NCBI RefSeq assembly: GCF_002210345.1
Contig: NZ_MWQI01000001.1
Location: forward strand, 558,001 to 622,000
Reading direction: 5' to 3'
Length of the DNA stretch: 64,000 nucleotides
DNA from: Fibrobacter sp. UWB4
Lineage (GTDB): Bacteria > Fibrobacterota > Fibrobacteria > Fibrobacterales > Fibrobacteraceae
A model generated the notes under the pieces. The model ran no database searches. It had not been told where the DNA came from and worked only from the letters and a program-made list of their open reading frames with translations. The translations under genes were made by a program, and so were the position numbers. This document shows, piece after piece, positions 11,162 through 55,140 of the stretch. The first letter of the stretch is position 1; each line of letters starts with the position of its first letter.

Positions 11162-11396
11162 GAAAAGAGCTTTTGAAAACAGCTGGAAAAGTACGCTATG
11201 CGGGCGGGGCCCCAGCTCGGAGTTGACGCCTACGGCGTCTGCGGCTTCACTCGGTTATGCCGGTCTGCAAGCAGCCCGTCGCAACACTCGTTTTGCGCGC
11301 TACTGAGGTATGAGCTGTTGTAACAAGAAATGCTCAAAGCGAAGCGTGCTCAGAGGCACAACGTGCCGACCTCATACCCCTTAACTACAGTCTATT
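11162..11396. repeat. Intergenic short-hairpin island (type C)
   Basis: 235 bp between convergent genes, with no credible reading frame. It contains the mini-hairpins GACGCC-TAC-GGCGTC and GGCAC-AAC-GTGCC, the GCTCAAAGCGAAGCGTGCTC stretch, and GAGGTATGAG/CTCATACC arms. The same elements recur at 3131-3200, 16260-16450, 26597-26830 and 54882-55140. Confidence 0.6.
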
Positions 11397-16259: not shown

Positions 16260-16450
16260 TTATGAGGTATGAGGGCGCTTCGCTTTGGGGTCGCACCTGC
16301 GGTGCTTTGAGCTCGCTTCGCTTTGAGCTTGTTTTTTTCTTTTTCCTTCCCTCAGAGTTTTATGAATGTGACCATCCAAAAACCTCATGCAGCTTACCCC
16401 ATAACCCCATACCCCAAAGCCCGCTGTAGCGGGCGACCCCATAACCCATT
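16260..16450. repeat. Intergenic short-hairpin island (type C)
   Basis: 191 bp between rlmH and folA. It contains GAGGTATGAG, GCACC-TGC-GGTGC, two GCTTCGCTTTG copies, tandem CCCCATAACCCCATACCCC and the hairpin GCCCGCT-GTA-GCGGGC. No gene is visible. Confidence 0.6.
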
Positions 16451-26596: not shown

Positions 26597-26870
26597 TTTT
26601 GTTATTGGTCACGCTTCGCTTGGGGCTATGAGTACGCTCGTAAACTCGCTCTGGGGTATGGGCTATTGTAATATGAAAAGCCCAAAGCCTTGCAAAGCAA
26701 GGCAACCTCAAAAGCGTACAAAACGAGTGTCGCAAAAATCTGCTTGCATATTTTTATGACCGAGTGCAGCCGCGGACGCCGAAGGCGTCAAAGCGTAGCG
26801 ACCTCATAGTGCTTTAGCACGACCCCACTTCCTACTGTCTACTTCCTACTTCTAACTTCCTACTGCACCG
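26597..26870. repeat. Intergenic short-hairpin island (type C) and CTTCCTAC motifs
   Basis: About 275 bp without a credible gene. Mini-hairpins include GCCTTGC-AAA-GCAAGGC, GACGCC-GAA-GGCGTC and GTGCT-TT-AGCAC, with CACGCTTCGC and GGGGTATGGG motifs. At 26827-26867 come repeated CTTCCTACT/CTAACTTCCTACT units also seen near 4409 and 44143. These run up to the folC -10 box. Confidence 0.6.
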
Positions 26871-54204: not shown

Positions 54205-54238
54205 GTCATTCTGAGCGTAGCGAAGAATCCAGTTAAGT
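54205..54238 (+). repeat. Type-A repeat arm
   Basis: GTCATTCTGAGCGTAGCGAA onward with the GAATCCAGTTAAGT core. It overlaps the place where a -35 element for the next gene would lie. Confidence 0.75.
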
Positions 54239-54724: not shown

Positions 54725-54820
54725 GTCATGCCCACCGCTGAGCGGGCACCTCCTTCTTGTCCTGACGCTTCACTCTCGTCATCCTGACGCCGAAGGCGGA
54801 AGGACCCGCTAAAGTCTTGT
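54725..54820. repeat. Type-B and type-A repeat arms
   Basis: GTCATGCCCACCGCTGAGCGGGCACC (54725-54750) and a type-A arm GTCATCCTGACGCCGAAGGCGG with AGGACCC and AAAGTCTTG (54778-54820). First part of a 432-bp stretch (54720-55151) with no gene that I can support. Confidence 0.7.
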
Positions 54821-54881: not shown

Positions 54882-55140
54882 TCGTCATTCTGAGCGTAGC
54901 GAAGACAACTCAGAAGGCGAGTATGCCCCAAGGCGAAAATGCCTTAAGGCGAGAGATGCAAGATAGCTTGCTATCTTATATCCGAGCCGATAGCATGATG
55001 CGAAGCATCTATGCCGCAGTTGTGCTTGCACAAATATGGCTGAGCCGTTTAGCAAGACGCGAAGCGTCAATGTTGCGACCATGCTTGCATGGTCATAACC
55101 GAGCCAAAGAGTTGGGGCTTTGCCCCATCCAGTGACGATC
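54882..55140. repeat. Tandem short-hairpin island
   Basis: A type-A arm (54882-54912), three 16-bp direct units beginning AAGGCGA (54914, 54930, 54946), then three units of about 60 bp starting near 54960, 55020 and 55079. Each large unit begins with a hairpin centred on GCTTGC (AAGATAGC/GCTATCTT; TTGTGC/GCACAA; GACCATGC/GCATGGTC), has a GAGCC spacer, and ends with another hairpin (GATGC-GAA-GCATC; GACGC-GAA-GCGTC; GGGGC-TTT-GCCCC). An open frame across it (54824-55135) is a by-product of the repeats. Confidence 0.75.

Follow-up and report, generated by a model that had tools for sequence, protein, structure and literature searches.

Nested hairpin modules in Fibrobacter with drifting stems and a fixed unpaired core: a probable mobile element defined by its fold

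The stretch of DNA analysed here (the window, 64,000 nucleotides of the genome of Fibrobacter sp. UWB4) carries at 54960-55136 a run of hairpins that an earlier note had described as three tandem units, each built of a hairpin, a spacer with GAGCC and a second hairpin. A check of the sequence bears out the stems, the loops and the GAGCC between the hairpins of each unit, all of which lie where they had been placed. The description of the units as tandem was rejected: the modules are nested, and modules 1 and 2 have their left halves at 54906-54937, upstream of the units as named. Tandem duplication as the source of the units was also rejected, as P1, P4 and P5 differ between units and left and right halves interleave. 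Dinucleotide shuffles fold worse than the region whether it is treated as DNA (z = -5.1) or as RNA (z = -4.5); in both treatments none of the 200 shuffles folded as well. The window copy consists of three nested modules, each situated at the bulged base of the next outer one, and all lie within a REP-like palindrome.

All parts of this copy are given on the plus strand. The left part of the CGTC-tagged palindrome (CGTCATTCTGAGC-GTA-GCGAAG), which carries the modules, occupies 54883-54904 and was recognized from the sequence and from module-free REPs at other sites; its right part, ATCCAGT (55127-55133), is common to REP copies with and without a module. Module 1, the outermost, was delimited by an alignment of 18 paralogues and by pair counts. 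Its left half (54906-54921) comprises the 5′ strand of P1, CAACTC (54906-54911), and the P2/core segment GGCGAG (54916-54921). The right half (55072-55126), assigned from pair counts and sequence, runs through GTT-GC, P4, AT-AAC-CGAGCC, the 3′ strand of P1 and P5; within it lie the P4 hairpin (GACCATGCTTGCATGGTC, 55077-55094), the P1 3′ strand GAGTTG (55109-55114) and the P5 hairpin GGGGC-TTT-GCCCC (55114-55126). The left half of module 2 (TATGCCCCAAGGCGAA, 54922-54937) sits at the bulge of module 1, as judged from orthologous pairs with and without it elsewhere (the EF-P locus of G000/G075; L017/L258; L020/L257). Orthologue comparison and sequence place its right half, with P4, CTGAGCC, P5 and AAT, at 55012-55071, including the P4 hairpin at 55018-55035 (TTGTGCTTGCACAA within) and the P5 hairpin GACGC-GAA-GCGTC at 55056-55068. 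Module 3, the innermost, is complete. It occupies 74 bp at the bulge of module 2 (54938-55011, a placement ambiguous by 1 base), and exactly these 74 bp are missing from the orthologous element in G052 (L188), which has modules 1 and 2 only and an otherwise exact junction. The core of module 3, GGC-GA-G-A-GAT-GC-(P4)-AT-ATC-C-GA-GCC (54948-54988), was assigned by a pattern whose reversed control gave 0 matches in the genome; its P4 hairpin, AAGATAG-CTTG-CTATCTT (AAGATAGCTTGCTATCTT), lies at 54960-54977 and its P5 hairpin, GATGC-GAA-GCATC, at 54997-55009.

Three other islands in the window had been named as sisters of this one, and two of them carry the same core (chance expectation 0.00). The island near 11162 has its core at 11250-11290 on the minus strand, within a module of a different family (P5 GACGCCGTAGGCGTC) that spans 11222-11310, and the genome holds several further copies of this core. 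The island near 26597 has its core at 26724-26764 on the plus strand, in a module (P5 GACGCCGAAGGCGTC) with approximate limits of 26710-26794. The third, at 16260, gave no match to the core; the interval 16260-16340 holds other hairpin repeats (GCTTCGCTTTGGGGTCGC..., GAGCTCGCTTCGCTTTGAGC) and is probably a different repeat. Beside the same gene as the nested copy are module-free REP-like palindromes (TCATTCTGAGCGTAGCGAAGAATCCAG) at 54206-54234 and 54780-54800.

A sequence search of the UWB4 genome with the window stretch returned 42 matches, and a covariance model built from 18 copies returned 69, as well as matches in 80 of 80 Fibrobacter genomes. Most copies are a single unit inside the REP-like palindrome GTCATCCTGAGC-loop-GCGAAG / ACAACTCAGAAGGCGAGTGTTGC(hairpin)ATAACCGAGCCAAAGAGTTGGGGCTTTGCCCC / ATCCAGT, whose tag is CGTC, whose stem opens with AT and whose tail is CCA (CGTC-AT-TCTGAGC...GCGAAGA-AT-CCA). 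An inverted REP follows some copies (L009, L010 and L016), and none follows many others (L011, L017, L019 and L020). The weaker matches of the covariance model led to a wider family in which P1, P2, P3, P4 and P5 all differ yet pair; each genome contains dozens of copies, which fall into several families that share the core and the plan and have different stem sequences. The copies are mostly intergenic, and many lie directly 3′ of a stop codon. A large share of the intergenic repeats in Fibrobacter, a main cellulose degrader of herbivore guts, is accounted for by the element.

At L109, L111, L113 and L114 of the UWB4 genome a module separates the stop codon of a gene from a repeat of that gene's last 20-25 codons, and the duplicated gene ends differ at many synonymous sites (for example KELAYCHV.RLEAAGA, stop, module, then the peptide repeated). 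Modules of family 2 (P1 ACAAATGC/GCATTTGG; L102, L103, L107, L118 and L120) are embedded in low-complexity repeats of two types, AGTAGGAAGTAGACAG and AGACGAGAGACGAGAG. One module resides in frame in an SNF2-type helicase gene (L310:5241-9317, minus strand; G000:C1:245241-249317), where it adds about 40 codons between the SNF2 and helicase C domains.

The modules follow the plan P1[P2-CGAG-N-GNN-GC-(P4 hairpin)-AT-N'N'C-CGAG-P2']P1', with the P5 hairpin directly after P1. Between the strands of P2 are C-GA-G, one bulged base, a helix of 3 bp that begins with G, then GC, the P4 hairpin (often with a CTTG loop), AT, the partner strand of the helix and C-GA-G. The unpaired core comprises the tandem GA/GA, the bulge and the GC/AT loop, and it is fixed while the helices drift. 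When written as the pattern CGAGNGNNGC...ATNNCCGAG, the core has 88 matches in the UWB4 genome (G000), against 0 for the reversed control. Both N positions, which the pattern does not force to pair, are paired in 66 of 71 distinct matches when G-C and A-T alone are scored as pairs, and the bulged base of the distinct matches is A, T or C and in none of them G. We also searched 864 kb of the UWB4 sequence with P2, P3 and P4 required to pair and with either the inner loop or the tandem pair left free. The free inner loop proved to be GC/AT in 20 of 20 cases and the free tandem pair GA/GA in 20 of 20, the reversed control giving 0 in each search. Fixed unpaired bases thereby sit between helices that have been rewritten.

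Covariation was scored only at positions that the pattern does not fix, with one sequence retained per distinct P4. Free helix positions of the resulting 102 distinct cores, a set from which chance hits to coding sequence of unrelated species were not removed, are paired in 88.4% of cells, compared with 54.5% after shuffling and 32-38% in slid controls, the latter being the safer comparison because related copies inflate shuffle tests. The covariation score of these cores is 0.790 versus 0.213 for the shuffled set, and 0 of 500 shuffles scored as high. Chance matches in coding DNA account for part of the 11.6% of helix-by-copy cells that are unpaired. Homologous islands and a covariation analysis had been suggested as the check on the original observation, and in them pairing is kept at every helix while the sequence drifts. 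G-T pairs make up 10 of 978 pairs (1.0%) in P4 stems versus 14 of 220 (6.4%) in tRNA stems of the same DNA (Fisher p = 2e-5). The loops of the REP hairpins are of the form C(GNA)G in 22 of 47 cases.

Orthologous sites differ in the number of modules that they hold. At the EF-P locus the REP is free of modules in G045, G001 and G007, as it is at 54206-54234 of the window, whereas it contains one module in G000 and two nested modules in G075; gain versus precise loss is not polarised there by an outgroup. Module 2 is present at the bulge in one member and absent from the other in the orthologous pairs L017/L258 and L020/L257. A module of this type also occupies the bulge of a different outer family (family 3, L265) that has little sequence in common with family 1. 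Modules in reverse orientation or a REP are found within P4 loops in L248, L249 and L260, those of L260 and L249 being reverse-oriented modules. In G066, three-module composites are found elsewhere at 89-98% identity, although its orthologue of the window site carries no element. Because composites of two modules without module 3 are spread over many genomes, gain rather than exact loss would be the simplest reading for module 3. The presence of two- and three-module composites at non-orthologous sites shows that nested products spread as units. Orthologous sites either have or lack a module as a precise unit, which supports mobility. No target-site duplication was seen, and gene conversion between copies could account for part of the spread of module 2.

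Within the phylum, all or nearly all Fibrobacter genomes exceed the control in core matches, as do some other genera of the family (g5, g6, g10 and g11); genus g4 and genomes outside the family are at control level. Among the matches listed by a GTDB scan are fully paired cores from Candidatus Saccharibacteria (L354, L371, L373 and L445), from Treponema and another spirochaete (L366, L368, L392 and L434) and from Bacillota (L429, L431 and L436). One spirochaete has as many as 36 cores, a Clostridiales bin 10 and a Treponema bin 7, with 0 or 1 in controls. Most positives outside Fibrobacter are bins, and single copies on short contigs (L368 and L445) could be binning errors; genomes with multiple copies are harder to explain in this manner. 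The core recurs in gut bacteria of four phyla, namely that of Fibrobacter, Spirochaetota, Bacillota and Saccharibacteria. Viral contigs were rejected as carriers: they gave three matches, with paired helices in 0 of 3. In bins of Clostridia and a spirochaete (L483, L490 and L462), several cores closely follow a TATAAT-like sequence, as if near a transcript start, with inconsistent neighbours. AT-rich leaders in Clostridia led us to consider a riboswitch-like cis-regulatory leader, which was rejected given the differing neighbour genes and mixed orientation.

Candidate movers and known classes were then considered. PF01797 (Y1_Tnp, RAYT) occurs in 44 of 111 genomes of the family and not in the element-rich G001, G007 and G017; a RAYT or Y1 transposase was rejected as the mover, many element-rich genomes being without this domain. 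The two PF01797 copies in G000 have equal scores and equal frames of 162 aa, which fits an insertion sequence. RVT_1 occurs in 18 of 80 Fibrobacter genomes and not in the element-rich G000, G066, G075, G042, G046 and G071, and a reverse transcriptase, or membership in a retroelement class, was rejected because the domain is missing from most genomes. No autonomous copy with a gene between the halves was found in 864 kb of the UWB4 sequence. At the curated gathering score, Rfam gave 0 matches in the window and only tRNAs at 20 loci from several phyla, the best score below threshold being 14.9 bits where 48 are required; a known Rfam family was rejected on this basis. An integron attC site was likewise rejected: the order is GNN ... 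NNC inside CGAG/CGAG, not RYYYAAC ... GTTRRRY, and there is no AAC...GTT order.

We hold with high confidence that the element is mobile and structurally constrained. The earlier note had proposed either a selected structure or an element copied by hairpin-dependent means, and this proposal is supported by the paired drift, the fixed unpaired core and the precise presence or absence of modules. We favour, at a probability of roughly 60%, a non-autonomous mobile hairpin element whose identity resides in its fold and which is moved by a putative enzyme acting in trans, with single-stranded DNA favoured over RNA as the moving form. The enzyme would bind the folded single strand through the core and cut at or near the ends of helices, after which the module would be joined to another folded copy at an unpaired position. 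Stems would be free to drift since only the shape and the core are read. Where an existing module has received a further one, the latter lies at the bulge N or in the P4 loop. The single strand could be, for example, the lagging-strand template. A C(TT)G loop is favoured in DNA, and GCUUGC forms a stable loop in RNA as well. The DNA mini-hairpin GCGAAGC is employed on account of its stability, and C(GNA)G is a class of very stable DNA mini-hairpins (PMC4686876). The scarcity of G-T pairs together with loops stable in DNA leads us to lean towards single-stranded DNA, a route in which our confidence is moderate.

The same architecture might instead be carried by RNA, in one of two ways that we regard as unlikely. 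The somewhat stronger of these holds that the module is transcribed, folded, inserted by reverse splicing or ligation and then reverse transcribed. Insertion into bulges and loops of folded copies and the stability of GCUUGC as an RNA loop would suit such a route. RNA-mediated transposition and ligation have moreover been proposed for the GC clusters of yeast mitochondria (PMC4478555). However, RVT_1 is confined to a minority of Fibrobacter genomes and missing from element-rich ones, G-T pairs are far rarer than in tRNAs, and the bias in gene orientation is weak (the upstream gene is co-oriented for 32 of 50 copies). Slightly less probable still is a selected cis-acting RNA, such as a stabiliser of mRNA 3′ ends, a terminator or a protein-binding site, that was amplified by recombination and is mobile only incidentally. 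Functional RNAs are usually recognised by just such a fixed core amid covarying helices, and the many copies right behind stop codons fit it as well; yet the neighbouring genes vary between copies in several phyla, presence at the same site varies among close relatives, one copy lies in frame within the SNF2-type helicase gene, and Rfam has no match.

Two explanations that dispense with module transposition or with selection on structure appear distinctly improbable. REPs and module variants might have spread by homologous recombination or gene conversion among similar copies, as the approximately 90 bp common to outer modules and the recurrence of the same module 2 in several outer copies would allow. 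Against this, module 2 is also found in the bulge of family 3, despite the little sequence shared with family 1, and new families whose P1 and P5 are unrelated nonetheless arrive at the same place in the structure. Marginally the least probable of all is mutational self-templating, in which template switching perfects imperfect palindromes and the structure is under no selection. The perfect stems of P4, P5 and REP hairpins alike and the scarcity of both G-T and A-C intermediates agree with it, but a fixed unpaired core would not survive if palindromes were repaired on their own template. With GA/GA, the bulge and GC/AT left free in the search, all copies found have them unpaired amid rewritten helices (20 of 20 each), and the same core is present in four phyla.

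Beyond the mobile hairpin element that we favour, we put forward more tentatively, and with some doubt, a class of mobile nucleic acids defined by a folded core and not by sequence. In single-stranded, folded form they would be recognised by a putative new enzyme and moved into other folded copies of themselves at unpaired positions; the nested products would become new spreading units, and the class would be common to four phyla of animal and termite guts. The element described here offers a natural case in which a mobile sequence keeps its fold and a few unpaired bases and rewrites nearly everything else. The orthologous before and after states make the movement directly testable, and the core may serve as bait for finding the enzyme, which could also explain REPs of the CGTC type.

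Dispersed folded repeats are also represented by the small dispersed repeats of cyanobacteria, BOX elements, which are modular, and the Rickettsia palindromic elements, which are sometimes in frame inside genes; we know of none among them with the present core or with nesting at a bulge. REP and REPIN sequences with their RAYTs (PMC3116915) are similarly short, dispersed, mostly intergenic palindromes with compensatory stem changes and a proposed movement as a folded single strand, and the palindrome flanking our modules is REP-like. The module described here differs in being longer, with a fixed internal core and nesting at the bulge, and many element-rich genomes are without Y1_Tnp. CGTC-tagged REPs, which have been reported without a dedicated transposase (PMC3733652), resemble the flanking palindrome in the tag, the AT-starting stem and the CCA tail, whereas modules inside the REP fall outside that description and the paper makes no mention of Fibrobacter. 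Mitochondria harbour comparable elements, namely the GC clusters of yeast and the hairpin elements of fungi and sponges (PMC4478555, PMC2800124); these have no conserved non-canonical core, and the stems of yeast GC42 and the sponge elements are conserved where those described here drift. Within the small folded mobile repeats, the present element is set apart by its fixed non-canonical core, its freely drifting helices, its insertion into its own copies at unpaired positions and its spread over four phyla.
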